The position numbers were made by a program, and so were the translations under genes. This document shows, piece by piece, positions 23,927-46,200 of a stretch of DNA of 56,819 nt. Position 1 is the first letter of the stretch. The number at the start of each line of letters is the position of its first letter. The notes under the pieces were generated by a model. The model saw only the letters and a list, made by a program, of their open reading frames with translations, had not been told where the DNA came from and ran no database searches. This stretch comes from Opitutaceae bacterium (lineage in GTDB: Bacteria; Verrucomicrobiota; Verrucomicrobiia; Opitutales; Opitutaceae). Where the stretch lies: NCBI GenBank assembly GCA_030648295.1, contig JAUSID010000042.1:1-56819 (forward strand), in the 5' to 3' direction.

Positions 23927-26671
23927 ATGATTTTTGATCTCGCGCAACACACCTCCGCCTTGAGCGTGGGCGAATTCGCCGGGTTCGCGCTCGGGCCCCA
24001 GGATTCGAGCGGGGGCGGAGGCGGAATCTGGCGGGCCCAGCTCGGCACGCACTGGCATAATGAGCTGCGTCTGCGCGCGACCGCCGAACACGCCACCGCC
24101 GCGGAATTCGAGATTCCGATCACGGGGCGGATCGCCCACCGCGGATGGACCCTCACCCTCACCGGGCGAATCGACCAGGTCATTCGCGCACCCGACGGAA
24201 TCACGCTCCGCGAAATCAAATCCGTCACGCGCGCGCTGCCGGCCGACGAATCGGAACTGCGGCGCGACTACCCGGACTACTTTGTACAACTCGCCACGTA
24301 CGCGACGCTCCGTCGCAACGGGCTGCTCGCGGTTGAATCGCAATCGGCCGACATTCTGCGCGGGCTCTCAGGCGGCGCTGCGGTGCGCGCCGAACTCGTG
24401 TTCGTGGAAGTCGGCAGCGGTCTCGCCCAGACCATCGTGCTCACCCCGGCCGACGATGCCCTGTTTCGCGCCCAGCTGGAACGTATCACACAGTTCCTTA
24501 CGCTCCGACTGCGGGCGCGCCAGCGGCTCCAGAATCTGCGGTTTCGGCCCGCCTTCGCCGTCCCGCGGCCCGGACAGGCGACGACGCGCACCGAACTGAC
24601 TGCTCTATTTGAGCGGCGGCCCCTGGTCTTCTTCGAGGCCCCGACCGGATTCGGCAAAACCGGCGTCTTGCTCGAGTTCGCGCTCGGCCAGCTCCGCTCC
24701 GGCCATTTCGATCGCGCGCTTTACCTGACCAGCAAGTCCACCGGACAGCTCCAGGTCGTGCGAACGCTGCAGATGATGACCGCCGAAGGACCAGAGACCG
24801 AGAAAGGACCAAGGACCAGGGACCAAAGACCAGGGACTGAAGACGAACGACCAGGGACCAGGGACAAGGGACTAGGGACCTCAAACCCAGAACTCAGAAC
24901 TCAGAACCCAGAACCCAGAACCCAGAACTCAGCTGAGCCGGCCGCGACGCCCGTCGCCGCCTGGCACGTGCGCAACAAGAGTGAGCACTGCGTGAACACC
25001 GTCTTTCACTGCGTGCGCGACCGCTGTAGTTACCTCGCGGATGCAGCGTCGCGCTGGAGCCAGAGCGGACTGGCGCGCTTTTATCTCGACGAAAAACACG
25101 CGCGTGATCTTGAAACCCTGCGCGCGGCCGGCCGGGACGCCCGAATCTGTCCCTACGAAATCACGCGGGCCGCGCTCGCGTTCAACGACGTGTGGATTGG
25201 CGACTACAATTACGTGTTCGCGCCGCGCAATCGCGGGTTGTTCTTCGAACAGCCGGGTTTCGAACCCGCGCGCACGCTGCTTCTGATCGACGAGGCACAC
25301 AACCTGCCGTCCCGGGTGGCCGACGCCTATTCGCACGCATTCTCCGCCGCCGAGGCGTTTGCCGTGCGCGACGAATTGCACCGTATCCGGCCGCCGGCGG
25401 CGCTCGTCACGGCGTGGGATCACTGGTGCCAATTTCTGCTCCAGCTGCGGCCGAAGGATGCGCTGCCGCTCGCGGACGAGGACGACGCGCGCCACCTGCT
25501 GGCCGAACTGGCGAAAATGATCACGAGCGTCCCGCTGGATCTCGCCACGCTGGCACCCGAGACATCGGACCGGCTCTGGCAGGTGCCGTCGCTGGTCGAC
25601 GACCTGGCCGCCCCGACGCTTCCCCGTCTCTGGTGGTGTCCGCGCGACGGCGAACTCGCCCTCACCTGCCTCGACGCGGCGCCGGCCATCGGCGCGGCAT
25701 TGCGCGAATTCGGCGGGGTCGTCCTGGCGAGTGCGACCCTGACACCGATCGACGGATTCACCGCCGCGTGCGGACTAAACCGGGAAGAAAACCGGATTCC
25801 GGATACCGAAAACGGGAACGATCCCGAGTCCGAGCGTTCCGGTATCCGGTCTCCGAAATCCGGAATCAGTGACCTCGAGCGGCTCGGCACGCTGAACAAG
25901 CGCGATACGAAGAAACTCTTCAGCCAGCTCACGAGTGCGGCGGAGTTGCTCAAGGTCGAGGAAGCCCGTGACGCGGCCAGCCCGGCGCTTTTGCGCGCGC
26001 ACACGCCGTGGCGTGATGGGGCGTATGACATCGCCTTCGATGCCCGGGTCGACACCTCGTTCCAGCACCGCTCTCATCACTACACGACGACGGCACTGAC
26101 GATCGCGGCTCTCCAAGCCGAAGCGTCGGGTGTCATCGCGGTTTTTTTCCCCTCCTACGCCTACGCGGATGCCATCATGCAGGAAATGGCGACGGCCGCG
26201 GCCGCGGTGCGCGTCGCATTGCAACCGCGATTGCGCGATCTCGCGCGACAGGCGGCCTGGGTTGATGAATCGCTCGTGACTGCGAATGCCCTCTTCCTCG
26301 TGCTCGGATCCAGTTTTGCGGAGAGCATTGATGTGCTCGGCGGCCGGATTTCGCACGCCATGGTCGTCGGTCCCGCGTTGCCCGAGGTCAACGCCGTCCA
26401 GCGGGCGCGGCACGCCGACGCGACACGACACGGCTTCAGCCGCGAAGCCGCTTTCCGGCGCGTGTATCAGATTCCCGGCATGACGAAAGTGAACCAGGCG
26501 CTCGGCCGGCTCGTGCGTGCGCCGGGCCAGCGCGCACGGGTCGTACTGCACTGCCGCCGGTTTCTCGACCCGAGTTACACGAACCTGCTCGCATCAGAAT
26601 ACCAGGAGGGAACGCGGATCATCGACGATGATCAGCTCGCCGCCTGGCTGCGCCGGACGGTGAGGGCGTGA
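23927..26671 (+). CDS. XPD/DinG-like Fe-S DNA helicase with N-terminal PD-(D/E)XK nuclease domain
   Basis: A 914-residue protein from ATG 23927. Residues about 40-130 hold a Cas4/RecB-like nuclease core: Asp83 in GRIDQV, Glu96-x-Lys98 in LREIKSV, and Gln121/Tyr125 in VQLATYATL. The superfamily 2 helicase follows: Walker A APTGFGKT with Lys244, four cysteines C355, C362, C367 and C408 placed like the Fe-S domain of XPD/DinG, DEAH at 455-458, and motif VI QALGRLVRAP near the end. It should be an ATP-dependent 5'-3' DNA helicase coupled to a nuclease. Two repeat arrays are inserted in frame at about residues 287-340 and 618-650. It follows a RecO-like gene, suggesting a repair role. Confidence 0.87.
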   Translation: MIFDLAQHTSALSVGEFAGFALGPQDSSGGGGGIWRAQLGTHWHNELRLRATAEHATAAEFEIPITGRIAHRGWTLTLTGRIDQVIRAPDGITLREIKSVTRALPADESELRRDYPDYFVQLATYATLRRNGLLAVESQSADILRGLSGGAAVRAELVFVEVGSGLAQTIVLTPADDALFRAQLERITQFLTLRLRARQRLQNLRFRPAFAVPRPGQATTRTELTALFERRPLVFFEAPTGFGKTGVLLEFALGQLRSGHFDRALYLTSKSTGQLQVVRTLQMMTAEGPETEKGPRTRDQRPGTEDERPGTRDKGLGTSNPELRTQNPEPRTQNSAEPAATPVAAWHVRNKSEHCVNTVFHCVRDRCSYLADAASRWSQSGLARFYLDEKHARDLETLRAAGRDARICPYEITRAALAFNDVWIGDYNYVFAPRNRGLFFEQPGFEPARTLLLIDEAHNLPSRVADAYSHAFSAAEAFAVRDELHRIRPPAALVTAWDHWCQFLLQLRPKDALPLADEDDARHLLAELAKMITSVPLDLATLAPETSDRLWQVPSLVDDLAAPTLPRLWWCPRDGELALTCLDAAPAIGAALREFGGVVLASATLTPIDGFTAACGLNREENRIPDTENGNDPESERSGIRSPKSGISDLERLGTLNKRDTKKLFSQLTSAAELLKVEEARDAASPALLRAHTPWRDGAYDIAFDARVDTSFQHRSHHYTTTALTIAALQAEASGVIAVFFPSYAYADAIMQEMATAAAAVRVALQPRLRDLARQAAWVDESLVTANALFLVLGSSFAESIDVLGGRISHAMVVGPALPEVNAVQRARHADATRHGFSREAAFRRVYQIPGMTKVNQALGRLVRAPGQRARVVLHCRRFLDPSYTNLLASEYQEGTRIIDDDQLAAWLRRTVRA
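24785..24935 (+). repeat. In-frame heptamer arrays (GACCAGG and CAGAACC units) inside the helicase gene
   Basis: From 24785 units of GGACCAAG/GACCAGG run to about 24880, then CAGAACT and CAGAACC heptamers run to about 24932. The reading frame stays open and encodes a charged low-complexity insert with a 7-residue period (RPGTRDQ, then EPRTQNP). It lies between Walker A and the Fe-S cysteines. Confidence 0.85.
25788..25872. repeat. In-frame CCGGATA dyad array inside the helicase gene
   Basis: The left arm ACCGGATTCCGGATACCG and the inverted right arm CCGGTATCCGGTCTCCG are about 30 bp apart. They encode NRIPDTEN and SGIRSPKSGI in frame within the helicase C-terminal half. The same family occurs in valS, after glnD and at the start of the sensor kinase. 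Confidence 0.85.
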
Positions 26672-26704
26672 GGATTCTGCCAAGCAGGGAAAGCTCTCCG
26701 CGGC

Positions 26705-27274: not shown

Positions 27275-27320
27275 CCGTAGAACAAACCGCAAACGGCGGG
27301 TTCGGCAAGCGGCGGCCGCG

Positions 27321-27441
27321 TGCGGATACCGGAAATCGGGTACCGGAATCCGAAATCCCGAATGGGAAATCGTCCGCGACCAACAACCGCCGGCCTATTC
27401 CGCTATCCGGTGTCCGGTATCCGGTATCCGAAATCAGAAAT
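27321..27441. repeat. CCGGATA dyad array between valS and the FMN reductase gene
   Basis: The left arm (27321-27370; GCGGATACCGGAAATCGGG) and right arm (27398-27441; CCGCTATCCGGTGTCCGG) are inverted. The right arm ends three bases from the valS stop codon. On the minus strand it is the valS 3' end and could fold as a long hairpin. Confidence 0.8.
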
Positions 27442-27443
27442 CC

Positions 27444-30296
27444 TCACCCGAGCGCCTGCAACAGCCGCTCCAATTCCACGCGCTTCGCGTGCTGTTCCGC
27501 GAGCTGCTTCTTCGCGCCCTCGATCACGGCCGGCGGTGCCTTGTCGGTGAAGGCCTTGTTCGCGAGCCGCGCTTCGGTTCCGGCGATGTGCTTGGTCAGT
27601 TGATCGAGCTCCCTGGTCAGCCGGATTTTTTCGGCCCCCACGTCGACTGCGCTAGCGAGGTCGAGATACACGGTGCCCAAGGGCGTCACGATGGCGGGTG
27701 CGCCCTCGACCTTGTCGCGACGGATAAACTCCGCCGCGCCGGCCATCCGCGTGAGCTTGGCCAGATTCGTGGCGATCACGGACCAGTCGGCGTCCGACGC
27801 GATGACGAAAAACTTGCTGTCACGACGGCTGGCCAGGTTGTGCTCGGCCTTGAGCGCGCGGGCCTGGGACACCAATGATATCAGCTGTGCCACCTGGGCA
27901 ACCGCCGCGCGATCGAGCGTCAGCCCGTGGCCGACCGACGAGCTGGCAATCTGCGACGCGTTTTCCAGCCGCACATCCTCGATGAATCTTCCCTCCGGTC
28001 CGTATCCGAGCTGGTGCCAGAGTTCCTCCGTGATGAATGGGATGAATGGGTGCAGCAGCAGCAGCGTCTGCCGCAGCACCAGGTCCTGAATCGTCAGGCA
28101 GTTCGCCTTTGTATCCAGATCCTGGAGCTTCGACTTGGAGACCTCGACATACCAGTCGCAGAAATCGTTCCAGAAGAATGTGTAGAGAGCCTGGACGGCG
28201 GCGCTGAACTCGAACTCGCAGAGAGAGCGGTTCACCTCGCGCGAAGTCGCGAGCATGCGATCAAGGATCGCGTGATCATCGGCGTCGAACTTTGCCGGTT
28301 CCAGCCGGCTGAGAATGGCCTCAAGCGACGAGTTGTCGCCCGCTCCCCCGCTCATCTGCCGGAACCGGCAGGCGTTCCAGAGCTTGTTGCAGAAGTTCTT
28401 GCCGCTCTCGATCCGGTCCTCCTGGAACCGGATGTCCTGGCCCTGTGGCGCGATGGACACGATCCCGAACCGCAGCCCGTCGGCGCCGTATTTGTCGATC
28501 AGGTCGAGGGGATCGGGCGAATTGCCAAGCGACTTCGACATCTTCCGGCCCTGCGCGTCACGGATGATGCCGGTGAAATACACATGCCGGAAGGGAAGGC
28601 GTGCCTGGATTTCATCGGGTGTTAGCATACCGGATACCGGATACCGGATACAGGATGCATCTTTGGCGCCCGCCGACCCCGCGGTATCCGGTATTCGGTT
28701 TCCGGTTTCCGGTATCGAGTCGGTTTGCGCTGGCGGTTTCCCCATGAACTCCAGCCCCGCCATGATCATCCGTGCCACCCAGAAGAAAATGATGTCCGGG
28801 CCCGTCACCAGCGTCGTCGTCGGATAAAAGTAATCCAGCCCGGCCTTCTGCATCGCGGCCTGGTCCGGCCATCCCATGGTCGCAAACGGCCACAGCCAGG
28901 ACGATGCCCATGTGTCGAGCACGTCGTCCTCCTGGGTCCAGTTTTCCGGATCCGCCGGGCCCGCCAGCGAAACGTGCACCTTCGCCGGGTCGCGCAAATC
29001 GGCCTCGGTGAGCTTCTCCTTGTCCAAGCCTTTCCGATACCAGACGGGTATCCGGTGTCCCCACCACAGCTGCCGGCTGATGCACCAGTCCTGGATGTTC
29101 TCCAGCCAGTGCAGGTACACCTTGCTCCAGCGTTCCGGGTGAAACTTGATGAGTTCGTCGCGCACGACCGCCTTTGCCTCCTCGACCCGCGGGTAACGCA
29201 GCCACCACTGCCACGTCAGCCGCGGTTCGATCGGAACGTCGGCGCGCTCCGAGAACCCGACGTTGTTCGAGTAGGCCTCGTCGGCCACCAGCGCACCCGA
29301 TGACCTCAACATCTCGGCTGCCTTCTTTCGTCCGGCGAATCGTTCCATGCCCGCCAGCTCCGGCCCGGCGAATTCGTTCAACGTCCCGTCCGCATTCAGC
29401 ACATCGACGATCGGCAGCCCATGCCGGCCGCCAATCTCGAAGTCAGCCTTGTCGTGCGCCGGCGTGATCTTCAGCGCGCCGGTGCCGAATTCCCTGTCCA
29501 CGGCCGCGTCCGCCACGATCGGAATGTCCGCGGCCGGCCCGATCGGCCGCCGCACCTTTTTGCCGACCCAGCCATCATAGCGCGGATCCTCGGGGTGCAC
29601 GGCGATCGCGACGTCGCCCGGGATCGTCTCCGGCCGCGTCGTCTTCACCTCGATGAATTTTCCCGGCGCATCCACCCTCTCGTATCGCACGTGGTACATC
29701 GTGCCGTTCACCGGCTTCATGTTCACCTCCTCGTCGGACAACGCCGTCTGCGTCGCCGGGCACCAGTTCACCATCCGTTTTCCGCGGTAGATATTGCCCT
29801 TCTGGAAAAGCCCGACGAACGCGGTCAGCACCGCCCGCGAATAATGTGGGTCCATGGTGAACTGCGTCCGGTCCCAATCGCACGAGGCGCCGAGCCGGCG
29901 CAGCTGCTCGAGGATGATCCCACCCTTCTCCTCGCGCCACTCCCAGACCTTCGCCTCGAATTTCTCCCGCCCAAGATCACGACGCGTCTTTTTTTCCTTC
30001 TGGCGCAGCTGCCGCTCGACCACGTTCTGCGTGGCGATGCCGGCATGATCGGTCCCGGGAATCCACAGCGCCGCACGACCCTCCAGCCGCGCGCGGCGGA
30101 CGAGGATGTCCTGGAGCGTATTGTTCAGCACGTGGCCCATCGTCAGCACGCCCGTCACATTCGGCGGCGGGATGACAATCGTGTACGGCTCCTTGCCCGG
30201 CGTCACCCTGCCGGCAAACGCGTGGGAGGCCAGCCATGCGGCATACCATTTCTTCTCTACCTCGCGTGGTTCGTAACTCTTGGAGATGTCAGCCAT
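27444..30296 (-). CDS. valS: Valyl-tRNA synthetase
   Basis: A 950-residue class I aminoacyl-tRNA synthetase charging tRNA-Val. The N-terminus is typical (YEPREVEKKWYAAW). The HIGH-type motif is in PPPNVTGVLTMGHVLNNT (residues 43-60), KMSKS is at 585-589, and the C-terminal coiled-coil arm is present (LDQLTKHIAGTEARLANKAF). The editing domain with GTGALKITPAHDKADFE is intact. The oddity is an in-frame insertion at about residues 524-559, coded by a CCGGATA dyad array (IPETGNRIPDT, then CIRYPVSG). It falls in the catalytic domain before the stretch FRHVYFTGIIRD that precedes KMSKS. The gene is divergent from glnD. Confidence 0.97.
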   Translation of the reverse strand: MADISKSYEPREVEKKWYAAWLASHAFAGRVTPGKEPYTIVIPPPNVTGVLTMGHVLNNTLQDILVRRARLEGRAALWIPGTDHAGIATQNVVERQLRQKEKKTRRDLGREKFEAKVWEWREEKGGIILEQLRRLGASCDWDRTQFTMDPHYSRAVLTAFVGLFQKGNIYRGKRMVNWCPATQTALSDEEVNMKPVNGTMYHVRYERVDAPGKFIEVKTTRPETIPGDVAIAVHPEDPRYDGWVGKKVRRPIGPAADIPIVADAAVDREFGTGALKITPAHDKADFEIGGRHGLPIVDVLNADGTLNEFAGPELAGMERFAGRKKAAEMLRSSGALVADEAYSNNVGFSERADVPIEPRLTWQWWLRYPRVEEAKAVVRDELIKFHPERWSKVYLHWLENIQDWCISRQLWWGHRIPVWYRKGLDKEKLTEADLRDPAKVHVSLAGPADPENWTQEDDVLDTWASSWLWPFATMGWPDQAAMQKAGLDYFYPTTTLVTGPDIIFFWVARMIMAGLEFMGKPPAQTDSIPETGNRIPDTAGSAGAKDASCIRYPVSGMLTPDEIQARLPFRHVYFTGIIRDAQGRKMSKSLGNSPDPLDLIDKYGADGLRFGIVSIAPQGQDIRFQEDRIESGKNFCNKLWNACRFRQMSGGAGDNSSLEAILSRLEPAKFDADDHAILDRMLATSREVNRSLCEFEFSAAVQALYTFFWNDFCDWYVEVSKSKLQDLDTKANCLTIQDLVLRQTLLLLHPFIPFITEELWHQLGYGPEGRFIEDVRLENASQIASSSVGHGLTLDRAAVAQVAQLISLVSQARALKAEHNLASRRDSKFFVIASDADWSVIATNLAKLTRMAGAAEFIRRDKVEGAPAIVTPLGTVYLDLASAVDVGAEKIRLTRELDQLTKHIAGTEARLANKAFTDKAPPAVIEGAKKQLAEQHAKRVELERLLQALG
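28622..28725. repeat. In-frame CCGGATA dyad array inside valS
   Basis: At 28630-28651 three near-perfect CCGGATA heptamers run in tandem, and at 28683-28716 the inverse units TATCCGG, TATTCGG and TTTCCGG answer them. The insert is open in the valS frame and adds roughly 35 residues absent from ordinary ValRS. Confidence 0.9.
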
Positions 30297-30503
30297 CGGT
30301 GGGTCGCTGAATTTAAACCGCCGAAAGAACTCCGCGGCGCAGCGGGAGGCAAGTGGTTAATCGCCCGCGACGACGCCGGTGGTTTGCAGTGTCGCAGACC
30401 GAACGTCCGGCCTCGCGGGCTCGAAGTGGCACGGGCATCCCTGGTCGCCTTCGGCGCCGCCAGAGGCGGGTAAACTTGCCGCGGACTTCCAGCGATCGCA
30501 TCG

Positions 30504-30700: not shown

Positions 30701-30799
30701 GCGGAACCGGCCATCGGCGCACCCAAAGGATCGCCCTGCAACTTGAACGTTGAATGTTCCTCGTTAGCTCTTCGGAATGCCCGGTTCCGCCGCCCCCGC

Positions 30800-33613
<2,814 letters not shown>

Positions 33614-33617: not shown

Positions 33618-33660
33618 TTTTTGATTTCGGATTTCGGATACCGGAAACCGGATAGCGGAG
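33618..33660 (+). repeat. CCGGATA array after glnD
   Basis: GATTTCGGATTTCGGATACC then GGAAACCGGATAGCGG follow the glnD stop within ten bases, a single arm of the CCGGATA family. A T-run precedes it (33614-33622). Confidence 0.7.
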
Positions 33661-33736: not shown

Positions 33737-34090
33737 ATGACTCGTGATGAATTCAAGAACCGCACGAAAGCATACGCGCTTCGTGTCATTCGGCTCGTGG
33801 AGGCTCTGCCACGCGATGCCATATCGAAAACCATCGGCCATCAACTCCTGCGCGCCGGCACGTCAGTCGCCGCAAACTATCGCGCGGCAATTCGCTCGAA
33901 ATCCACAGCGGATTTCATCTCAAAAATGGGCACCGTCGAAGAGGAGTGCGACGAGTCGCTGTTCTGGATCGAACTTCTAATCGACTGCGGTCGCGTCAAA
34001 GCAAACCGTGTTTCCAGTTTGATGGCCGAAGGCGAAGAAATTCTCGCGATCACCGTCGCCTCGATCAAAACCGCCCGGCGATCCAAGTAG
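33737..34090 (+). CDS. Four-helix-bundle protein (23S rRNA intervening-sequence protein family)
   Basis: A 117-residue all-helical protein. LRAGTSVAANYRAAIRSKS and EECDESLFWIELLID are diagnostic of the four helix bundle / S23 ribosomal protein family, originally found in intervening sequences of 23S rRNA genes but scattered as stand-alone genes in many Verrucomicrobia, Bacteroidetes and Planctomycetes. Its biochemical role is not established. There is no rRNA gene nearby. It lies between two heptamer array blocks and overlaps no real neighbour. Confidence 0.88.
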   Translation: MTRDEFKNRTKAYALRVIRLVEALPRDAISKTIGHQLLRAGTSVAANYRAAIRSKSTADFISKMGTVEEECDESLFWIELLIDCGRVKANRVSSLMAEGEEILAITVASIKTARRSK

Positions 34091-34155
34091 ACACCCCGAA
34101 TTGGGCGGGAAGGGAATCGCTGGCCATCGACCGAAGGTACGACGAAGATTGGCCC

Positions 34156-36090
34156 GTGGCACAGCATGAGAAAAAGCCGCGGACTCCGGAGTCGCCGGAT
34201 CCGAAATCCTCCGACCATCCGGTTTCCGGTATCCGGTCTCCGGTATCGCCGAATCCGCCATCCGCAATCCGCAATCCGCAATCAACAGACCATCCGGTTT
34301 CCGGTTTCGCAGATCCGAAATCGGGCGGATCCGAAATCCGCAATCCGCAATCACCCCCGGTTTCCGGTATCCGGTTTCCGGTATCACCGAATCCGCAATC
34401 CTCCGCCCCCCGCGCCCTGCCCGTCCTCTACCGGCTCGCCGCCCAGGCCGCACGCGAGCTGGATCCACGCGACGCACTGCGGGAGGCGCTCGATCTGTTC
34501 ATCGACGCGTTCAGGGCCGAGGCCGGCTCGATTGCGTTGCTGAACCCCGACACGGGTAATCTCCAGGTCGAGGTGCAAACCGGCCTTCCGGACGGCCAGT
34601 CGTACCACGAGTTGAAACTTGGCCACGGCATCACCGGCTGGTGCGGACTCAACCGCCGCGCGCTGCTCGTGCCCGACGTCAAAGCTGAATCGCGCTACAT
34701 CGCGGTACGGCCCACCGCGTGCTGCGAAATGGCGGCGCCAATTCTCAATGAGGACCAGGTCATCGGCGTGATTGACCTCGAATGCGATCGCGTCGGTGGA
34801 TTTACCCCGGCCGATCTCGCCCTCCTTGAACTTTTCGCGGCCGAAACGGCGCGCGTGATGCAGCGGCTGTGGCAGCTGCGTCACCTCCAGGGCAAGGCGC
34901 GCCAGCTGGAATCATTGATCACCGCCGGGCAGTCGCTGGTGACAAAACTCGAGCAGCAGGAATTGTTCGACACCCTCACGCGCGAGGCGCGATTCATGAT
35001 GCAGGCGCGAAGCTGCGCACTGTACGTATACGACGCCGAAACCTCGACCGTTCGGTTTGCCTCCTTGACGAGTTCGGCGGTGACACCGCTGCCCGACGCG
35101 CCCATTCCCCTCGATTCCTGTGCCGTCGCATCGCCGATTCACACCCGGCGACAGGTCGTGTTCGCCGACATCCAGTCGGCCGAGTTCCGCGAGCTCCACG
35201 ATCTCCCGGCCGACCAACGGCTGGTTTCGATGCTGGCGACGCCGCTGATCTTCGAGACCGAGGTCCTCGGCGTGCTCGCGATTTTCACCGAGCGCGTGCA
35301 TCGGTTCGACAACGACGAGAAGCGGCTCTGCGCCGCGCTGGCGAGCCTCGGGGCGGTCGCGCTCCAGAACGCGCGACTCTACGCCCGGGTGTTTCAGAGC
35401 GAGGATGTGCTGCGGAAAAACGAGCGGCTCACCACGCTGGGCCTCCTCGCGGCGGAAATCGCGCACGAAATCCGAAATCCGCTCACCGTCCTGAAGCTGC
35501 TGCACGGCGGACTCGGCCTCGAGTTTCCCGAAGGCGATCCGCGCAAAACCGACATCCGCGTGATTGGGGAGAAGCTCGACCAGCTCGAGGCGATCGTGAG
35601 TCGCGTGCTGAATTTCGCCCAAGCCCCATCGAGCCTGCACGCGCGCTGCTCGCTGACCGACGTGATCGAGGACACCCTGCTGCTCGTCCGGCTGAAGCTC
35701 ACCCAGGGCAAAGTCGCGCTCCATTTCGAGCCGGTGGCGCGCACGCTTTTCGTCGATGCCCACAAGGGCCAGCTTCAACAGGTGCTGCTGAATTTGCTGC
35801 TCAACGCGACGCAGGCGATGCCCGATGGCGGAACGATCGAGGTCACAGTTTCCACCGAGCCTCGCAACGGCGGCAGGGTGGCAAACATCGATATCACCGA
35901 CACTGGCTCGGGCGTGCCGGAGGGGATCCGCGATCGCGTGTTCGACTCGTTCCTGTCCGGCCGGCCGGATGGCACCGGGCTCGGACTCGCAATCGCCAAG
36001 CGGATTTTGCTCAGTCACCACGGCGACATCACGCTGCTGCGCACCGGCGGCACGGGCACGACAATGCAGGTGACGCTGCCGGTCGCTTGA
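34156..36090 (+). CDS. GAF-domain sensor histidine kinase
   Basis: A 644-residue kinase if begun at GTG 34156; no ATG lies between here and the first domain, so the start is uncertain. Residues about 10-82 are encoded by repeat arrays (PVSGIRSPVS, SAIRNPQS) and are probably disordered. Two GAF domains follow (about 110-240, with AEAGSIALLNPDTG, and about 270-420). The HisKA phosphoacceptor is His437 in EIAHEIRNPLTVLKLL. The ATPase domain has NLLLNATQAMPDGG, DTGSGVPEGI and GTGLGLAIAKRI. It has no membrane segment or receiver, and no response regulator gene is adjacent, so it is an orphan cytosolic sensor. The signal is unknown. Confidence 0.88.
   Translation: MAQHEKKPRTPESPDPKSSDHPVSGIRSPVSPNPPSAIRNPQSTDHPVSGFADPKSGGSEIRNPQSPPVSGIRFPVSPNPQSSAPRALPVLYRLAAQAARELDPRDALREALDLFIDAFRAEAGSIALLNPDTGNLQVEVQTGLPDGQSYHELKLGHGITGWCGLNRRALLVPDVKAESRYIAVRPTACCEMAAPILNEDQVIGVIDLECDRVGGFTPADLALLELFAAETARVMQRLWQLRHLQGKARQLESLITAGQSLVTKLEQQELFDTLTREARFMMQARSCALYVYDAETSTVRFASLTSSAVTPLPDAPIPLDSCAVASPIHTRRQVVFADIQSAEFRELHDLPADQRLVSMLATPLIFETEVLGVLAIFTERVHRFDNDEKRLCAALASLGAVALQNARLYARVFQSEDVLRKNERLTTLGLLAAEIAHEIRNPLTVLKLLHGGLGLEFPEGDPRKTDIRVIGEKLDQLEAIVSRVLNFAQAPSSLHARCSLTDVIEDTLLLVRLKLTQGKVALHFEPVARTLFVDAHKGQLQQVLLNLLLNATQAMPDGGTIEVTVSTEPRNGGRVANIDITDTGSGVPEGIRDRVFDSFLSGRPDGTGLGLAIAKRILLSHHGDITLLRTGGTGTTMQVTLPVA
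34186..34400 (+). repeat. Composite heptamer arrays (CCGGTTT and ATCCGCA units) at the start of the kinase gene
   Basis: Arms of CCGGTATCCGGTCTCCGG alternate with ATCCGCA units (CCATCCGCAATCCGCAATCC) four times over about 215 bp, all in the coding strand sense. The encoded text alternates PVSGIRF and IRNPQS heptapeptides. It forms the whole N-terminus of the kinase. Confidence 0.88.
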
Positions 36091-36179
36091 ATTTCGGATT
36101 GCGGATTGCGGATCGGCTGACGCCGCGACATTCGGAGTTCATTAAGCCATGTTTTCAAACCTCGTTGCAGAAACTCGGC

Positions 36180-36330: not shown

Positions 36331-36542
36331 TTTTACAGGAGAAAGCAGAGGGAGCAGAGGGAGCAGAGGTCCACTTCATGCATTTTCTCTGCTTCCTCCG
36401 CTGCCTCCTGTTAAATGGGTTGGGTTTGGTTGCGGCCCCGTGTCGCGGTGGGAATTATCCGGGCTAACGCGTTGTCTTCGCGTTTGCCCAATCCGAAATC
36501 CGCAATCCGAAATCGAACGGTCCGAAATCCGAAATTGAAACC
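36331..36542. repeat. Dyad arrays before the cupin gene
   Basis: TTTTACAGGAGAAAGCAGAG then GGAGCAGAG units (36331-36370, period 9) are answered by CTCTGCTTCCTCCGCTGCC and CTCCTGTTAAA (36385-36414). At 36489-36540 ATCCGAA/ATCCGCA heptamers run up to the cupin start codon. A short array of the same heptamer family (GGATTGC) also follows the kinase stop at 36094-36112. Confidence 0.7.
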
Positions 36543-36543: not shown

Positions 36544-36870
36544 ATGTTTTCCCACCTCGCCTCGCTTCCTGGCCGCACGCTCTTTCCGGGAGTGAACGGA
36601 CATTACGCGCATGAAGCGCGCTTCACCATCGGCCACATCGAACTCGCGGCCGGCGCGGTCGTGCCGGTGCACCAACATCCGCACGATCAGATCTCCTACG
36701 TGATCGAAGGAGAACTTGAGTTCAGCTGTGGATCCGAGATCCGCGTGATGCGTCGCGGTGACTGCCTGATCATCACCGGCGGCATACCGCACGGCTGCCG
36801 CGCCATCACCGGCTGCGAGGTAATCGACACCTTCACCCCGGCACGGGACGATTACCGGCTCCAGACCTGA
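36544..36870 (+). CDS. Small cupin-domain protein
   Basis: A 108-residue single-domain cupin begun at ATG 36544; the upstream frame is open only through the repeat array. Cupin motif 1 is PVHQHPHDQISYVIEGELEF with metal-ligand histidines (HQHPHDQ), and motif 2 is RRGDCLIITGGIPHGC. Such short cupins bind a divalent metal and act as small-molecule isomerases, dioxygenases or sensors; the function cannot be fixed from sequence. It is followed by a 358-bp gap with repeats only. Confidence 0.88.
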   Translation: MFSHLASLPGRTLFPGVNGHYAHEARFTIGHIELAAGAVVPVHQHPHDQISYVIEGELEFSCGSEIRVMRRGDCLIITGGIPHGCRAITGCEVIDTFTPARDDYRLQT

Positions 36871-38004: not shown

Positions 38005-38122
38005 GCGCGAAAACTGCGGCGTCGATCATGTCGCCGCAACTCCGGAAACTCCGGTGAATTCAGGCCATCGGCGGCCGTCGCGGTTTGCATCCCGTCCGTT
38101 GACGCACAGATTCGTGCCCCCC

Positions 38123-39001: not shown

Positions 39002-41173
39002 TTACGGGTGATGGACAGATGTCAACGGAGTGTCGGGCCACGGCACGATGGGGCTGTAGCCGAACCGGTCGAGTCGCGCGATCAATGCATGGCTCTCATC
39101 GCTCCGACCGAGCAGGGCGAGTGCGCGGGCCGCGGGATCGAGCACCCGCCAGTCCTTCGATCGGTCAATTCGCGCGGCCAGTAGAGCAAAGGCGCGACTC
39201 GCGTGTGCCACGCACCTCTCGCGGTCGCCCCGGCGTTCTGCAATGGCGGCGGCAGCGAGGTAGGCACGCGCACATTCGCCGATGGCGCCCTCGGTTGGCG
39301 TGCCCGCTCCAACCAGTGATTCACCGAGTTCGATCGCCCGGGCCGCAGCCTCGCGGGCGCCCGCACCGCTCGTTTGATCGAGGAATTCCGCTTCCATCCG
39401 GAAAGCCATGGCGAGGTGCGGCCGTGCCATCCGACTCGATGACACCGCCACCGCAATTCCCTCGAGTGCCTGCCGCGCGTGCCCGACCTCCTGTGCGACT
39501 GCCGGCGTCACTCCGGTCGCACTCTGCAGCGCCGCTTCCTTGAGCCGCGCACGCTGCAGGACGATCGCCCATTCGCGGTTGGCACCATCGTGCGCGACCA
39601 GCTCCCCTATCACTTTTCGCACCTCTGCCATCATCGTCCTGGCTTCCGCGATTCGCCCCGTAATCGAAAGAATCGTGGCCTGAAACGAGAGGCTGTCCGC
39701 CCTTTCGAAGCGCCACCTCATCGTATGCGGTTCGGCCCGGGCGATTGTCGCCAGCCCCTCCGACTCGGACGAGAAGCGAGCGAGCGCCGCGGAGAAATCG
39801 CCAGACCGTTCCGCCACGCTGCCCAACCACGATTCCGTATCGGTGATTCGGTATTTCAACTCCAGGTTCGTCGGATTCGCGGCCGACATTACCCGGAGGG
39901 CTTCCAGTTTGCCGATGAACGCCGCCCGGGCAGCGTCGAGGTCCCCTGCGTCGACACGAAGCACCGCGAGATTGTGCCAGCTGGATGAAAGCTCGGTCCG
40001 CCATTTCTGGTTCGCCGGCTCCATCCTCACCATCGCGACTGCAGAATCGCGGTAGCGCGTCAGCCATTCCTGGGCGGCGTCAAACTGGCCCTGCCTCCGG
40101 TGCACATAGCCAATCCAATATTCGGCCTGCGCGCGCTCGAAATACATGGCGGGGTCTCGAGGGTGTCTTTCTGTCAGTGCTGATGCGCGCTGATACGCCG
40201 TCACGAAGGCCCGGGCCGCCTCGGGATAACGCCCCTGCACCATCCGCGTCTCGCCGATTTGCGTCAGCGCCTTCGCCTGCCGCGCCAGCGTGGTGTCAGT
40301 GAGATCCTGCGGCTGGAGCGACGCGAAATACGCCATCGATTTCGTTCCCACCTCCTCGAGGATGTCGAGCCGGCCGACCTTCTGGAGTTGGGTGCGGATG
40401 TCGCCGAGGATGAACGCGAGCAAATCCTCCGACTGATCCTGCCGACGCCGCGCGTCGTTGCGCGCCTGCCAGGCGATCACGGCGAGTCCAAGGGTGAGCG
40501 CCATCCCGAACGCCGAGGACAACGCGATCAACGTGAGCCGCCGGTTGCGCCGTTGCAGTTCCCTGCGCCTCAGGTCGTCGAAGCCCACGCCGAGCAAGCC
40601 CGCTACCAGCCGCACGAATGCCAGTTTCGGGCCGTCGCCTTTCGGGCGCGCATCGGCGGCCACGACCTCGGCGGGGGTGGAGCCAAGCTCGCCGTCGGCG
40701 CCGACCCCGGCACGGAGGGCGGGCGGAAAACAATCGTCGGCCGCCCCGGCGGCGTTGGGTTCACCGTCGACGATGAAGGCGAACACGCTACGTTCACCGT
40801 GCACCCGCTTGAACGCCATGATTTCCTCGTGCACCCAGCGCGAACGCGCCGCGCGCGGCGAGCAGATGACGACCAGCGTCGCGGACTGCCGCAGCGCCTG
40901 GCGGATGGTTTCGCCGAGATCACTCGTCGTCGGCAGTTCCTCGCGATCGCGAAACACCGGCGCGATGCGAGGACCCACACAACCAATCGGCGCCGGCCGG
41001 CCGTGAAACCGCCGCGGCACGCGATAGCGCTCGAGCCGCCGCATCAGCCACCGGGCCCATTTGGTATCGGAATGGCTGTAGCTGAGAAAAACGGGATAGA
41101 GGGCGGCCGCCGCGCCCGCGACGGTGGCGGGTGCCGTGGAAAAATCGAGCGCGGGGTGCGGTGGCGCGGCCAT
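39002..41173 (-). CDS. TIR domain, transmembrane, TPR-like repeat protein
   Basis: A 723-residue protein with ATG complement ending at 41173. Residues 26-140 are a TIR domain: YPVFLSYSHSD, FRDREELPTTSDLGETI, and SRWVHEEI, where a glutamate at 116-117 occupies the catalytic position of NADase TIRs. One membrane helix lies at about 213-235 (LIALSSAFGMALTLGLAVIAW). The rest is helical with TPR-like periodicity (ALTQIGETRMVQGRYPEAAR, HNLAVLRVDAGDLDAARAAF). The domain order puts the TIR and the repeats on opposite sides of the membrane or membrane-tethered. It is divergent from the SIR2-TIR gene by about 270 bp. Defence or signalling is inferred from the company it keeps. Confidence 0.87.
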   Translation of the reverse strand: MAAPPHPALDFSTAPATVAGAAAALYPVFLSYSHSDTKWARWLMRRLERYRVPRRFHGRPAPIGCVGPRIAPVFRDREELPTTSDLGETIRQALRQSATLVVICSPRAARSRWVHEEIMAFKRVHGERSVFAFIVDGEPNAAGAADDCFPPALRAGVGADGELGSTPAEVVAADARPKGDGPKLAFVRLVAGLLGVGFDDLRRRELQRRNRRLTLIALSSAFGMALTLGLAVIAWQARNDARRRQDQSEDLLAFILGDIRTQLQKVGRLDILEEVGTKSMAYFASLQPQDLTDTTLARQAKALTQIGETRMVQGRYPEAARAFVTAYQRASALTERHPRDPAMYFERAQAEYWIGYVHRRQGQFDAAQEWLTRYRDSAVAMVRMEPANQKWRTELSSSWHNLAVLRVDAGDLDAARAAFIGKLEALRVMSAANPTNLELKYRITDTESWLGSVAERSGDFSAALARFSSESEGLATIARAEPHTMRWRFERADSLSFQATILSITGRIAEARTMMAEVRKVIGELVAHDGANREWAIVLQRARLKEAALQSATGVTPAVAQEVGHARQALEGIAVAVSSSRMARPHLAMAFRMEAEFLDQTSGAGAREAAARAIELGESLVGAGTPTEGAIGECARAYLAAAAIAERRGDRERCVAHASRAFALLAARIDRSKDWRVLDPAARALALLGRSDESHALIARLDRFGYSPIVPWPDTPLTSVHHP

Positions 41174-41445
41174 CGAAAAAAGGGATAACGAGTCGTCGCG
41201 ACAAACAGGATACACCGGCGCGGCGGAAGCGGGGAGTTCTCCATCACCGCCGCGAAAGGCGATGGTGGGGCCGCGCCAGTGTGATCGTGGGAGGCGGGCA
41301 TGAAGCCGGACATCGCCCCAAAGGGCCAGCCTGTTGTACGTGATGCCAATTCGTGGCGGTGAGATGCGCCCCTTCGGCATTACGTGCACAAACACGTCTT
41401 GACGCGCCCGCGGTTCCCCACGCCAATGGCGGCACCCCACCCCGC

Positions 41446-42858
41446 GTGCTCCACTCCGCGCCCGCTGCCCAGGATTTTTTTTGGGACGATCTGCTCGAAT
41501 ACATCGAGGATCGTCGCGTGATTCCCATTGTCGGCGCGGAGCTGCTGACCGTACCGGACGCCAGCGGCAACGATACGCCGCTGATGAGCGTGCTCGCCAT
41601 GCAGCTCGCCGCACGGTTGCGGGTGCCGGCCGAGGACTGCACGGGCGATGACGCGCTGCACACGGTCGTCTGCCGCTACCTTCAGCGCGGCGGCCGGCGC
41701 GAGGAAATTTATCCGCGCATCCGCACCTTGATGAAGGAGCTCGCGCCGGCGGTTCCACCGGTGCTGCGCGCGCTCGCGCGTATCCAGCATTTCAATCTCT
41801 TCGTCTCGACGACGTTTGACTCGCTGCTGGCCCAGGCCCTCGACGAGGAGCGGCATGGCGGGCTGCCGCGCACGCAGTCGATCGCCTACGCGCCCAATCA
41901 CACGCAGGATCTGGCGGCAGACGCGCGGCGCAGCGAAACACCGACGGTCTTTCACCTGCTCGGCCGGATGTCGGCGTCGCCGGACTACGTCATCACCGAG
42001 GAGGACACGCTCGAGTTTTTCACCTCGATGCAGTCCGAGTCGAAACGGCCTGGCGTGCTGCTCGACGAATTGAAGTCGAGCCACCTGCTGCTGCTGGGCA
42101 ATTCGTTCCCGGACTGGCTGACGCGGTTCTTCATCCGGATCGCGAAGAGCGGCCGGCTGTCGCTTCAGCGGGAGGAACTCGAGATCATCGCCGATCGTTC
42201 ATCGGCTCACGACGCGAAGCTCGTGCTGTTCCTGCGCAATTTCAGCTATCGCACGCAAGTGTACGAGGGTTCCGCTACCGAGTTTGTCCATGCGTTGTCA
42301 GACCGGTATTTGGCGCGGAACCCTGGGGTCGCGGCGGCCGCGACAGACGGACTGCCATCGGCCAACCCGGGGACGACAGAAAAGGGCTCTGAACCACACG
42401 CCATGAAGCCCGGATCGGTCTTCATCAGTTACTCGCGCGCCGATTCCGCGGCGGTGGAAACGCTTCATGCCGCACTCGAAGCAGCGGGGATCGACGTGTG
42501 GTTCGATCAACGCCGTCTCGAGGGCGGCGACGATTTTGACGCCCAGATCAAAAAGAACATCCGCAGCTGCTCCTACTTCGTCCCGATTATCTCGGCGTCA
42601 ACGCAGTCACGACACGAAGGTTATTTCCGGTTGGAATGGGATCTCGCCGTCGAGCGGTCACGGCTGATCGCCGAATCCGTGCCCTTTATTCTCCCGGTGG
42701 CGATTGATCCGGTCAGCGAAGCCGAGGCGCTCGTGCCGGAAAGATTCCGCGCCGTACATTGGACGCGGCTGCCCGGCGGAGAACCCACGCCCGAGTTTGT
42801 CGAGCGGATGGTCCGGTTGATCCGCGACCATCGGAAGCGGGAACGCGGCCTCCTCTGA
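41446..42858 (+). CDS. SIR2-like / TIR fusion protein
   Basis: A 470-residue protein from GTG 41446 (an earlier GTG at 41353 is also possible). The N-terminal 300 residues are a SIR2_2-like NAD-binding domain: RRVIPIVGAELL, NLFVSTTFDSLLAQAL, FHLLGRMSASPDYVITEED and HLLLLGNSFPDWLTRFF follow the order of defence-type SIR2 proteins. A linker leads to a TIR domain from residue 320 (VFISYSRADSAAVETL, GIDVWFDQRRLEGGDD) with a glutamate at 397 (YFRLEWDLA) in the catalytic region. Each domain can degrade or bind NAD in characterised systems (Thoeris, DSR, prokaryotic Argonaute partners). Having both in one chain next to a STAND ATPase suggests abortive-infection defence. Activity is untested. Confidence 0.88.
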   Translation: MLHSAPAAQDFFWDDLLEYIEDRRVIPIVGAELLTVPDASGNDTPLMSVLAMQLAARLRVPAEDCTGDDALHTVVCRYLQRGGRREEIYPRIRTLMKELAPAVPPVLRALARIQHFNLFVSTTFDSLLAQALDEERHGGLPRTQSIAYAPNHTQDLAADARRSETPTVFHLLGRMSASPDYVITEEDTLEFFTSMQSESKRPGVLLDELKSSHLLLLGNSFPDWLTRFFIRIAKSGRLSLQREELEIIADRSSAHDAKLVLFLRNFSYRTQVYEGSATEFVHALSDRYLARNPGVAAAATDGLPSANPGTTEKGSEPHAMKPGSVFISYSRADSAAVETLHAALEAAGIDVWFDQRRLEGGDDFDAQIKKNIRSCSYFVPIISASTQSRHEGYFRLEWDLAVERSRLIAESVPFILPVAIDPVSEAEALVPERFRAVHWTRLPGGEPTPEFVERMVRLIRDHRKRERGLL

Positions 42859-42884
42859 TAGACGAACCACAGACGATCCAATCC

Positions 42885-43225
42885 GGTTAACCGCAGAGAA
42901 CGCAGAGAACACAAAGACCAAGTCATCAAGCCATGACTCACTGCTCCTATTCCGCTCCCTGCGCTCCTTGCGCTCTTTGCGGTTAAATGCCTTTGCCCGA
43001 TCTCATTTCGGTAGCCAATTCGATGAAAACTTTGGAACACAGAGGACACAGAGCTCGGACACAGAGGACACGGAGCAAGACAAGTCGCCCGCCAATGACG
43101 CGAACTAACGCGAATATCTTTGATCTCCAACTCCACAGCTTCGCGCGAATTCGCGTGATTCGCGGGCCGTCAAGATATGTCGCTCCGGTCTTCTCGGTGA
43201 CCTCTGTGTCCCCTCTGTGATCTCT
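42885..43225. repeat. Composite dyad arrays between the SIR2-TIR and nSTAND genes
   Basis: GGTTAACCGCAGAGAACGC at 42884 is answered by CTTGCGCTCTTTGCGGTTAA at about 42967. A second set, GGACACAGAG units at 43035-43075, is answered by CTCTGTGTCC units at 43200-43225. Between them, ACGCGAACTAACGCGAA faces TTCGCGTGATTCGCG. The last arm runs into the GTG start of the nSTAND gene. No gene was seen. Confidence 0.75.
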
Positions 43226-46200
43226 GTGTCCCATATTCCGACGCCCGAGATCGACCGCGAAAATCCGTGGCCGGGGCTTTCGTCGTTCACGGAGGAGTCG
43301 TGCACGCTTTTCTTTGGCCGCGACAAGGAGACGGATGAACTCGCGCGGCTGGTTCGCCGCGAAACACTCACGGTCCTCTTCGGCCAGTCGGGGCTCGGCA
43401 AGAGTTCGCTGCTTCAGGCCGGGCTGTTCCCGCTGCTGCGGGAACAGGATCATCTGCCGCTGTACATCCGGCTCGATCACGGGGCCAAGCAATTGCCGAT
43501 TGCCGATTGCCAAGTGCCGATTGCCGGGACGGCCGATGAGCGCCCTTCCCGGTGCGACCACGAATCAATCGGCAATCGCCAATCGCCAATCGGCAATTTC
43601 CTCTCCGATCAGGTGAAAGCAGCGCTAAACGCGGCATTCGTTGCCGCGCGCGCGGACGCACCGGCAATCGGCGCCGGTGAAACCCTGTGGGAATATTTTC
43701 ACCGGAAGGACGTCGACATCTGGAGCGCGAAGAACCGGCTGCTGACCCCGGTCCTCGCCTTCGATCAGTTCGAGGAAATCTTCACCTTGGGCCGCGCGGA
43801 CGAAGCGGCCCGCGAGCGGTCCCGCGCCTTTCTCATCGAGATTGCGGACCTGATCGAGAATCGTCCCCCCGCTGCGCTGCGGGAGAAATTCGACCGCGGT
43901 GAGGCGGACCCCGCGCGATACAATTACGACAAGCCCTCGTGTCGCGTCATCCTCAGCCTGCGCGAGGACTTTCTCCCCGACCTCGAAGGCCTCAAGCAGT
44001 CGTTGCCCGCGCTGATCCACAACCGCCTCCGGCTGAAACGGCTCAATGGCGCGCAGGCGCTGGAGGCGGTGACACGCCCCGCGCCGCATCTGCTGGCGGA
44101 GGGCGTGGGTGAAAAGATTGTTGAGTTTGTTGCCGGAGTTCGCGGCGGCTCAGTGGAACGACTGTTGGAAATGGAGGTTGAACCTGCGCTTCTTTCCGTA
44201 ATCTGCCGCGAACTCAACGAGCGCCGCAGGGCGCTCGGGCAGGAGAAAATCACCGCCGACCTCGTCTCCGGCAACCGCCGCGAAATCCTCACCGATTTCT
44301 ACGAACGGAGCGTGAGCGACATGCCGGAAGGCATGAGGATCTTTATCGAGGATCATCTCCTGACGAAGTCCGGTTTCCGCGACAACCTCGCGCTGGAGAC
44401 TGCGCTCGAATTCCCCGGTGTCACGCGGCTGTTGATCGACACCCTGGTGTCGCGCCGGCTGCTGCGGATCGAGGAACGGCTCGGCGTCCAGCGCGTAGAA
44501 CTCACCCATGACGTTCTCGCCGATGTGGTGAAAGCAAGTCGTGATGCCCGGCAGCAACGACTAGCGCTGGAGGCGGCCGCCGCACGCGAAAGCGCCGCCC
44601 GCGAGGAGGCTGCCCGCCGCGCCCACCGGATGCGGTTCGCGATCGCAGGGCTGGTGGCCGTGGTAATGGCACTCAGCATCGGCGCGGTATTCGGGATTCG
44701 ATCGCAGCGTCAGACGGTGAAACGTGCCAGCCATACGGATTTCGTGCTCGGTTCGCGGCTGCTCGACGAGGGCAAACTGACGGAAGGACTGGCGTACCTC
44801 GTCCGCGCCGGCCGGAAGGACCCGCACAATCCAATCGTCGCCCCGCGGCTGCTCGCCACGCTGGCCGCGGAAAACTTCTGTCTGCCGAACGCCGAACCGA
44901 TTCCGTTGAACGGGCCAGCGATTGCCGCCGCCTACTCCGCCGAGGGACGCTGGCTCGCCGTGCAGAACCAGGACGACGTCATTCGGATTTTCGATGCGGT
45001 CACCTGGACCACCAGCCACGAAATCAAGTTCGGACACAAGATCCGGCGGCTCGGCTGGCAGTGGGCGGGCAAGACACCGGATCTGTTCGCGGTGTTGTTG
45101 GAAGACAACACGGTCGTTGTTTGCGACGCTGCCAGCGGCAGACCCAAACACGCTCCCATTCGCGTCCCGGAGCCGATTCCGGGCCGCATCCCCAATCTCG
45201 CGGTCAGCCCCGATGGACGGTGGATTGCGGCCAGTTCACCGGCGGTCGCCCGGGTATGGGATGTCGCGAGCGGCCGGTTGACGGCGACGATGCCGAATGA
45301 TCGCAGCGCGTATTCAAGGATCAACTTCAGCGCTGACAGCCAGCGCGTGGTCACGACCCACGGCGCGAATGTCACGCAGATGTGGTCGGTCGCCGATGGC
45401 GCCCCGGTGGGCGAACCCATGGTGCGCTCCGGGACCACAACCTATCTCAATTCGATCTTCAGCGAGGACGGCAGCACGCTGGTGGTGTGGCACGTGCAGG
45501 GTGCGCAACGTTTCGACTCGCGCACGGGTCTGCCGCTGAGCGAGGTCGTCCCCTTCTCCGTCAATACCGTGCGCCAGGTGGAAGACGTCGCGCTCAACGC
45601 CGACGGCCGGCGGCTGGCGATGGCGACGCTGCAGAACGAGGTCGCGATCATCGATCTCGAATCAGGGAAGAATGTGGTGCCGCCGCTCCAACATGGCGGC
45701 CCCATTTACCACCTGGCCTTCGGCTCGGGCGGGAGCGTGCTGTTCACCAATTCGGTCGACGGCGTTTTTCGGCTGTGGGATGTGGCGACCGGCCGATTGA
45801 TTGCGGTGCCGACATTTCAGCAGGAGCAATACTCGCCCGCGGCGCTTTCTCCCGACCGGGCGTCGGTCGCCGTCTTTGCTCCGGACGGACACGGTTACCG
45901 GCTGCGGATCGGCCGGGGCCGGGCCGAACCGATCCGATTCCCGCGCGCACGCGACGTCCGAGTGGTGAACTTCCACCCTAGCCCTCCGACCCGTCTCGCG
46001 TGGGGACTGCCGGACCGATTAATGGCGTTCGACGTCGCCAGCGGCAAAGAGACCTCCGGGGGATTCCCGTTTCCCGGCCGAATCGTCGGTCCGAGCGGAG
46101 CAATCCGGTCGACCCATGGCCAGACGCTGGGCGATGGACAGTCGCTGGTCGTGCTGGCGGCAACACCGTCCGGCCGCGCGTGGCGCGCGTGGTCTCTCGG

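Follow-up and report, generated by a model that had tools for sequence, protein, structure and literature searches.

Heptanucleotide-repeat arrays and hairpins between and within genes of an Opitutaceae genome

The window analyzed here is the whole 56,819-nucleotide (nt) contig JAUSID010000042.1 (contig C281), one of the 294 contigs of a 9.12-Mb metagenome-assembled genome (MAG), designated G000, from the Opitutaceae, a family known chiefly through metagenomes. It carries short arrays of tandem heptanucleotides that lie between genes, at gene ends and, in frame, inside genes for conserved proteins. Paired arrays form hairpins with a preferred order of a G-rich and then a C-rich arm; the arrays adjoin gene ends with a strand bias, fall into unit families particular to a genome, recur in the same protein linkers of relatives, and differ in unit at orthologous sites. 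An original prediction made from the sequence alone had pointed out the arrays but not that they form hairpins with a polarity, that they are associated with gene ends, or that their units change where the sites stay the same. We tentatively suggest that the Opitutaceae may possess a new class of self-renewing hairpins whose identity would reside in their architecture, a pair of complementary heptamer arrays of constant G-to-C polarity, and not in their sequence; each genome would have a changing vocabulary of heptamers, a word could spread to many tens of loci and overwrite older words in place, and linkers of about 15-50 residues would repeatedly be written into essential proteins.

Period-7 arrays in the window and in related genomes

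When lags of 4 to 24 were compared in the window at a single threshold, period 7 yielded 18 segments (730 bp) and period 14, a multiple of 7, yielded 11, with at most 3 segments at every other lag. A sample of G000 comprising 856,819 bases (9.4% of the genome), in which genes were called with our own gene caller, contained 82.9 period-7 arrays per Mb, compared with 9.3 at period 6, 35.0 at period 8, 23.3 at period 9, and 10.5 at period 10; no arrays were present in this sample at periods 5 and 11, and a fifth-order Markov control of G000 contained none at periods 7 and 8. All of the arrays named in the original prediction were recovered, and period 7 was the dominant short period in both the window and the genome sample. 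The relative G008 gave 85 period-7 arrays per Mb in 400 kb, versus 2.5 per Mb in its Markov control, and no period-7 arrays were found in samples of G016, a member of another family (200 kb), or of G010 and G002 (100 kb each). Small samples (14-60 kb) from twelve genus members gave nine arrays in G006 (40 kb), one each in G004 and G005, and none in the remaining nine genomes; these include G011 and G020, which are array-rich by heptamer pattern counts despite this result.

The 130 arrays considered in the G000 sample comprised 66 unit types. The units share a loose common skeleton, with 4.68 bits compared to 3.50 in letter-shuffled units. Transitions were enriched among the differences between units without dominating them (255 versus 221 transversions), and the suspicion, formed by eye, that they are the main source of unit variation was dropped.

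Architecture and polarity of the hairpins

In the array clusters that were printed out, the arms were mutually reverse complementary across a spacer. Fold tests were performed on eight window elements of our choice; seven gave z-scores of -2.2 to -8.1, and the eighth, a lone arm, gave +0.4. At a relaxed threshold, 36 related neighboring pairs were inverted and 16 were direct; the spacer had a median of 46 nt and the arm one of 30 nt. The G-rich arm lay 5' in 29 of the 36 inverted pairs (p 3e-4) and in 27 of 33 genome-unit classes, and the purine-rich arm came first in 30 of the 36. Stems with arms made of complementary heptamer repeats are a property of the paired subset of arrays.

Heptamer vocabularies of individual genomes

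A shared word was present in 61 of 1225 within-genome array pairs in G000, 33 of 496 in G008, and 7 of 210 in G006. Between genomes, the corresponding counts were 10 of 1600 (G000 and G008) and 12 of 1050 (G000 and G006), with 35 of 672 for the sisters G006 and G008; between G000 and 80 loci from the family (described below) the count was 15 of 2800. Threefold repeats of two words were counted in the 15 genus genomes with up to two mismatches and with overlapping matches included, so that the figures are matches and not separate loci. Threefold AATCCGC gave 242 matches in G000, 81 in G006, 79 in G008, 15 and 7 in two others, and 0-2 in the remaining ten, and its reversed control gave none. Threefold TTTCAAC gave 180 matches in G008, 177 in G006, 133 in G020, 92 in G011, and 26 and 11 in two others, with none in G000 and in eight other genomes; its reversed control, in its own right a heptamer pattern of similar kind, also gave matches (e.g. 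99 in G008).

Recurrent sites and differing units among relatives

The family loci were obtained by a contig scan based on the helicase gene of the window, which led to Verrucomicrobiota, mostly Opitutaceae/Opitutia, and 80 of 108 loci were kept. In a survey of the linker between the two domains of this helicase (linker 1), 100 loci were inspected, some genomes being represented twice, and 82 of these gave a linker. A detectable array of 7- or 8-nt units was present in 17 of the 82; the words differ (TGATGGG/CCCATCA, AAGTTGA/TTCAACT, GACAGGA/CCTGTCT, GTCACTT, AACCCGA, and CTCTCAA), and several are inverted. On a tree of 77 rows made without the linker, the linker 1 labels, which comprise seven heptamer families, require at least 17 changes, a count that was made without a shuffled-label reference from labels chosen by us after viewing the linkers (17 of 78 labelled, 13 of them strongly, with a score of at least 9). 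The sister rows L171 and L175 differ by the insert in this linker.

Different units at one orthologous site were found in the loci L188 and L229 (~93.5% DNA identity), where two co-located arrays differ, being of the CCCATCG type versus TCGAAAA and of the CCCATCA type versus CTCGTCA, and where a second helicase site has AGATGGG arms in one locus and an ATCGCCC-like sequence in the other. The same was observed in L185/L225, in L211/L205, and at part of the sites compared between G006 and G008 (82.8% identity). In the latter comparison, 12 of 15 orthologous intervals also had an array in G008; 13 clusters lacked an orthologue in the sample, one was set aside, and clusters with discordant flank strands were skipped without being counted. 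Sites used repeatedly are helicase linker 1, helicase site 2, and uvrA. A further in-frame site was noticed separately at about 9484-9514 of L229 and in the aligned stretch of L188, with differing arrays between flanks that are ~94% identical; inspection by eye places it in the nuclease portion of the helicase gene.

One pair of loci, L178 and L179, offers an empty and a filled site, in which an element of ~115 bp occupies a gene junction between flanks that are ~94% identical; no target-site duplication was seen by eye in this single pair. By eye, the element (9691-9802 of L179) also gives the upstream gene a new stop codon relative to the empty site.

Arrays inside protein-coding genes

The host proteins were named correctly in the original prediction: a helicase with PDDEXK and DEAD_2 domains (open reading frame [ORF] 23819-26671, start predicted at 23927), valS (27444-30296, minus strand), a GAF/HisKA sensor kinase (33946-36090), and an nSTAND1-WD40 protein (43217-47767). 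Its further claim that the arrays are in-frame inserts within conserved proteins holds for valS, the two helicase sites, and the nSTAND gene (Table 1), and needs correction for the kinase, in which the arrays lie upstream of the conserved part. The segment at helicase linker 1 of G000 was absent from all 17 relative rows (15 genes) spanning the linker, and the length of this linker differs among relatives, including those without arrays. Helicase site 2 is a pair below the array threshold and was for that reason missed by the array call.

At the valS site, the number of residues between the flanking motifs is 48 in G000, 9 in 11 of the 13 relative rows that span the site (two of them from one genome), 26 in G002, and 35 in G020; one more locus ended before the site. 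When ValS was compared to the Thermus valyl-tRNA synthetase structure 1GAX, the alignment broke at the insert, and 1GAX was without the extra residues. An AlphaFold model of ValS, with a mean predicted local distance difference test (pLDDT) score of 43.8 from 9 sequences, was unusable. The nSTAND insert was missing in all eight rows spanning both flanks (two rows being one gene), and the partial row L074 has different residues at the site. Clean insertion, as had been predicted, is seen in the absence of the insert from most valS rows and from all full nSTAND rows, with the reservation that the valS loop is already longer in G002 and G020. Identical segments at the same place, which would have spoken against the prediction, were not found in the relatives compared, some of which have other arrays there.

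No in-frame ATG, GTG, or TTG separates the kinase arrays from the conserved part, and the last possible start upstream is the GTG at 34156; the arrays are for this reason probably translated as an N-terminal tail; the exception would be initiation at a rare codon such as CTG. In the kinase relatives G019 and G012, possible starts lie 9 and 14 residues ahead of the conserved part. That the kinase arrays are wholly intergenic was considered as well and was abandoned after the inspection of in-frame starts.

Outside the window, uvrA of G000 contains in-frame arrays, and G006 and G008 carry different ones; the uvrA linker is very short in G003, G009, G010, and G012, and is present with no array detected in G002, G004, G005, and G011; one more row gave no result. 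Palindromic arrays thus occur in frame within the conserved genes valS, nSTAND, and uvrA. Additional in-gene arrays of the G000 sample are in AlaRS-, MetRS-, DNA-ligase-, U32-peptidase-, FabI-, and WD40-type proteins; Pfam was run on six of the seven listed hosts, and the AlaRS label is our own reading. The arrays of valS, uvrA, the helicase, and nSTAND occupy segments that are short or variable in relatives. The DNA ligase array falls inside a Pfam domain match, so that not all sites are plainly linkers.

Placement relative to genes and reading frames

Of 70 period-7 arrays in the G000 sample, 17 were inside predicted genes, 6 at gene edges, and 47 between genes, a strong depletion from genes given that 83.5% of the DNA is coding (p ~1e-27). 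The suggestion that such an array can land anywhere in a gene is not supported, given this depletion and the short or variable nature of the compared sites. Arrays with periods of 8-10 were inside genes in 2 of 52 cases (Fisher p 0.002), both of which are low-complexity codon repeats by translation, and 17 of the 19 in-gene arrays with periods of 7-10 have period 7.

Polarity relative to gene ends was counted on the sense strand for arrays of period 7-8 in the interval that runs from 15 nt within a gene to 25 nt past its end, with ties omitted. Near stops, arrays with more G than C outnumbered those with more C than G by 17 to 3 in G000, 15 to 2 in G008, and 7 to 2 in G006; near starts, arrays with more C than G prevailed by 15 to 0, 2 to 0, and 2 to 0, respectively. 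Three genes of the window illustrate this, valS, the GlnD-like ORF, and the kinase, each having a G-rich array behind its stop. The T content in the 12 nt past the 3' arm was 0.28, compared to 0.18 genome-wide. TTTT or AAAA adjoined 5 of 72 arm ends versus a background of 2.2%, a mild excess that is missing from most elements; since T-runs are uncommon, most elements are not ordinary intrinsic terminators, and that explanation was rejected for them.

The original prediction had also stated that a stop-free heptamer array encodes the same heptapeptide in all three frames. This arithmetic is correct and has a precedent in MacGregor 2015 (PMC4679880), where it is stated for TAACTGA/TCAGTTA with LSVISYQ on the open strand. 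That the reverse strand is also open was true of 52 of 70 units (74%), which is near the 61% of composition-matched random heptamers. The other 18 of 70 were open on one strand and none was closed on both, and 16 of 17 in-gene units were open on the sense strand. Frame openness is what a passive filter leaves, the absence of doubly closed units being a mild excess among recurring units that are non-independent. Openness designed for all frames was rejected as an explanation, openness being close to chance.

Proposed origin and alternative explanations

We see about an even chance that a single kind of hairpin, an array-armed quasi-palindrome, underlies the arrays, each of them being a complete copy or half of one, and that it is altered by slippage and template switching, distributed by a copying route, and tolerated in variable loops. 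Such an element would comprise a few tandem units of 7 nt (less often 8-10 nt), a spacer of ~20-80 nt, and a complementary array, and on either strand, read 5' to 3', the G-rich arm would come first and the C-rich arm second. Slippage of 7-nt units would keep the arms uniform and also alter them, and template switching from arm to arm during replication would keep them complementary, so that both arms could change together. A unit type would spread across one genome by some copying route. New copies would survive mainly between genes, starting at the stop codon, and copies inside genes chiefly in loops or linkers, given a stop-free sense strand and a length that is a multiple of three, where they would then serve as extra linker peptides that are probably disordered. 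We do not propose phase switching of the host genes, since these are very likely essential and a slip of one unit would disrupt them. The proposal is supported by the fold scores, the excess of inverted over direct pairs, the arm order, the strand bias at gene ends, the words particular to each genome, the differing words at one site, the reused sites, and the empty site of L178.

Several results weigh against this proposal. At a strict threshold, just 20 of 122 arrays had an inverted partner, 13 had a direct partner, 24 an unrelated neighbor, and 65 stood alone, so that many arrays consist of one arm only or of an arm whose partner has decayed; linker 1 of the G000 helicase itself consists of direct arrays of unlike units with no inverted pair. 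Word sharing was also high among the 80 family loci (56 of 1540), a set that includes close relatives and orthologous sites, and the word is the same, as judged by eye, in roughly half of the 15 orthologous G006/G008 intervals. The genome-wide figures come from 9.4% of G000 and from our own gene caller. Finally, slippage and template switching are processes that we infer, and neither explains the presence of one unit type at many loci of one genome.

A mobile hairpin similar to repetitive extragenic palindromes (REPs), bacterial interspersed mosaic elements (BIMEs), or miniature inverted-repeat transposable elements (MITEs), moved in trans by a REP-associated tyrosine transposase (RAYT; Y1 transposase) and with the arrays as a by-product of arm slippage, would account for the hairpin form, the intergenic position, the many copies, and the genome-specific families. 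Y1_Tnp matches were found in 14 of the 15 genus genomes (11 matches in G000, one of them inside the window), and the element of L179 is a clean insertion of ~115 bp. We consider this origin unlikely, however, in that copy number does not track Y1_Tnp: a single match accompanies many arrays in each of G006 and G008, and G003, with 23 matches, was without matches for either heptamer pattern and without period-7 arrays in a 60-kb sample. A common tag or spacer was not noticed by eye, in the absence of a systematic scan, among the printed heptamer elements; the single empty site showed no target-site duplication by eye; and transposition leaves the differing units at old sites unexplained. Rather unlikely, in our judgment, is that the elements are selected RNA structures, i.e. 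3'-end hairpins (for termination, processing, or stability) of upstream genes and leaders of downstream genes, in which pairing is what selection maintains and the in-gene copies are strays. The arms adjoin stops and starts with a constant strand bias, pairing is retained while units differ, the T content past the 3' arm is raised, and convergent gene pairs are in excess at clusters of G008 (12 of 32 clusters versus 59 of 369 gene pairs) and G006 (9 of 19 versus 33 of 171); against this, the proportion in G000 is close to background (11 of 60 versus 86 of 591), T-runs stand beside few arm ends, Rfam gave no match within the window, and several genus members are without period-7 arrays in their samples.

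Ordinary turnover of simple sequences in linkers and spacers, with units alike by convergence and no special element, would agree with the variable linker length in array-free relatives, with the loose skeleton of the units, and with the over-representation of heptamer repeats in many bacteria (PMC4692102); it is improbable in view of the inverted pairing with polarity and of single units that occupy many loci of one genome and are not found in most relatives. Templated repeat addition at broken 3' ends, telomerase-like or otherwise, followed by joining, would place G-rich repeats on both 3' ends and so give the G-rich-then-C-rich order, and would fit short genome-specific units. It appears very improbable: RVT_1 was detected in 5 of 15 genomes and in neither of the pattern-rich G008 and G020 (the latter 86% complete), Ku was detected in 2 of 15, and the 66 unit types in 130 G000 arrays would demand many templates. 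An artefact of metagenome assembly might be feared, as most of the compared genomes are MAGs, that of the window is in 294 contigs, and none of the arrays found comes from a confirmed isolate genome; it is hardly credible, because like elements occur in separate assemblies, such as G008 with ~20 contigs (one of 1.8 Mb) and 85 arrays per Mb, and G006 elements lie at positions orthologous to those of G008. The number of Y1_Tnp matches was separately tried as a driver of the arrays with no relation found, and RVT_1 reverse transcriptase and Ku, tried likewise, had distributions inconsistent with those of the arrays.

Relation to known systems and significance

The many different heptamers noted in the original prediction, and its comparison of the arrays to Rickettsia palindromic elements and to heptamer repeats of cyanobacteria, were upheld. 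Cyanobacterial short tandemly repeated repetitive (STRR) sequences are heptamer arrays and are grouped here with the TAACTGA-type systems. The closest known system is the heptanucleotide stem of the Nostoc trnL(UAA) group I intron, in which the P6b stem is built of Class I (TDNGATT) or Class II (NNTGAGT) repeats, independent lineages show substitution of one class by the other at this site, and for one group an exchange of the whole region was argued (PMC4476775). Both systems have arms of complementary heptanucleotide repeats and differing unit classes at one site in related lineages; unlike P6b, a single RNA-intron locus with two classes, the elements described here involve many loci, dozens of units, and intergenic or protein-coding sites. 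Rickettsia palindromic elements are likewise palindromes in frame within unrelated genes, and they differ in being ~150 bp long, in ten families, with a conserved peptide (PMC10969869), whereas here only the tandem-repeat architecture is common; the printed elements do not look like copies of a ~150-bp family sequence, since their units and spacers (the latter by eye) differ.

In Beggiatoaceae (TAACTGA repeats) and in Xanthomonas and Nostoc (G-rich heptamers), heptamer arrays are likewise mostly intergenic near starts or stops, with some in ORFs (PMC4679880, PMC4692102), and can be read without stops in every frame in one of their orientations (PMC4679880); they differ in having one main unit, direct repeats, and in-ORF cases mostly at protein ends (PMC4679880, PMC4692102). 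Borg genomes resemble the present case in repeat arrays that make disordered protein segments and in a conserved hotspot, but the unit lengths of their ORF repeats are all divisible by three (PMC9879509), unlike the 7-nt unit. Template switching at inverted repeats is a mutation process that makes stems and restores pairing, described for RNA genes and not for the arms of tandem arrays (PMC8794818). In Nematomorpha mitochondria, inverted repeats are tolerated in coding genes, with both arms encoding conserved protein regions (PMC6649704), whereas the inserts found here are added loops. In the searches made of the open-access literature of PubMed Central (PMC), no account of such elements in Opitutaceae or Verrucomicrobiota was found.

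The units of in-gene repeats are expected to be divisible by three, and here 7-nt hairpin arms enter valS and uvrA in frame. The elements provide a natural series of insertions in which to ask how new protein linkers originate, how stem pairing persists through sequence change, and how a repeat word spreads. ORFs may stay open through the arrays in any frame, so that calls of gene starts can be misled.

Other elements and genes of the window

The repeat elements of the window are listed in Table 1. In the gene-junction hairpin, the TGA stop of ORF 23184-23801 falls within the 5' arm, and the 3' arm stops short of the predicted helicase start.

Table 1. Positions of repeat elements in the window
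Element	Position	Strand	Description
Intergenic heptamer hairpin	4999..5065	.	past ORF end at 4990; fold z -4.7
Intergenic arms, period ~8	6418..6573	.	GGACCAAA-type, then GTCCCTTA
Gene-junction heptamer hairpin	23796..23900	.	fold z -8.1
Helicase linker 1	24804..24932	+	arrays AAGGACC, GACCAGG, AACCCAG; in frame, between PDDEXK and DEAD_2 domains
Helicase site 2	25789..25868 (approx.)	+	degenerate inverted pair, ACCGGAT-type then CCGGTAT-type arm; in frame; bounds by eye
Lone G-rich array (sense strand)	27398..27443	-	right behind valS stop; fold z +0.4, no better than shuffles
valS loop insert	28627..28713	-	inverted arms ATACCGG, CGGTATC; 25-nt spacer
G-rich array	33618..33654	+	immediately past end of GlnD-like ORF (33613)
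Sensor kinase arrays	34216..34386	+	four heptamer arrays, upstream of first conserved residues
G-rich array	36086..36116	+	spans and follows kinase stop
Period-9 hairpin	36344..36410	.	AGCAGAGGG; ends ACAGGAG...CTCCTGT; fold z -4.7; right bound by eye
C-rich array	36487..36535	+	shortly before weakly predicted start at 36544
Period-9 hairpin	42892..42981	.	ends TTAACCGC/GCGGTTAA; fold z -3.6
nSTAND-WD40 insert	43492..43597	+	inverted arms ATTGCCG, CAATCGG
Intergenic heptamer hairpin	48569..48690	.	AACGCTC arm and complement; fold z -7.6; right bound by eye

The two period-9 hairpins lie within 36335-36430 and 42885-42990 and have recognisable ends. Another type, of 10 bp (CGCGAATGGA), is found repeatedly elsewhere in G000 and looks closer to a conventional dispersed element. 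In the G000 sample, 10-bp arrays were never inside genes, and the only 9-bp arrays inside genes were the two codon-type cases. Genes for TIR-TPR, SIR2-TIR, and nSTAND-WD40 proteins are consecutive at 39002-47767 and resemble a defence or signalling cluster. The Y1 transposase match of the window (RAYT-type, 20958-21137) lies in ORF 20919-21905, immediately downstream of a threefold 35-bp tandem repeat (together 20548-21905), and the two may constitute a REP/RAYT pair.

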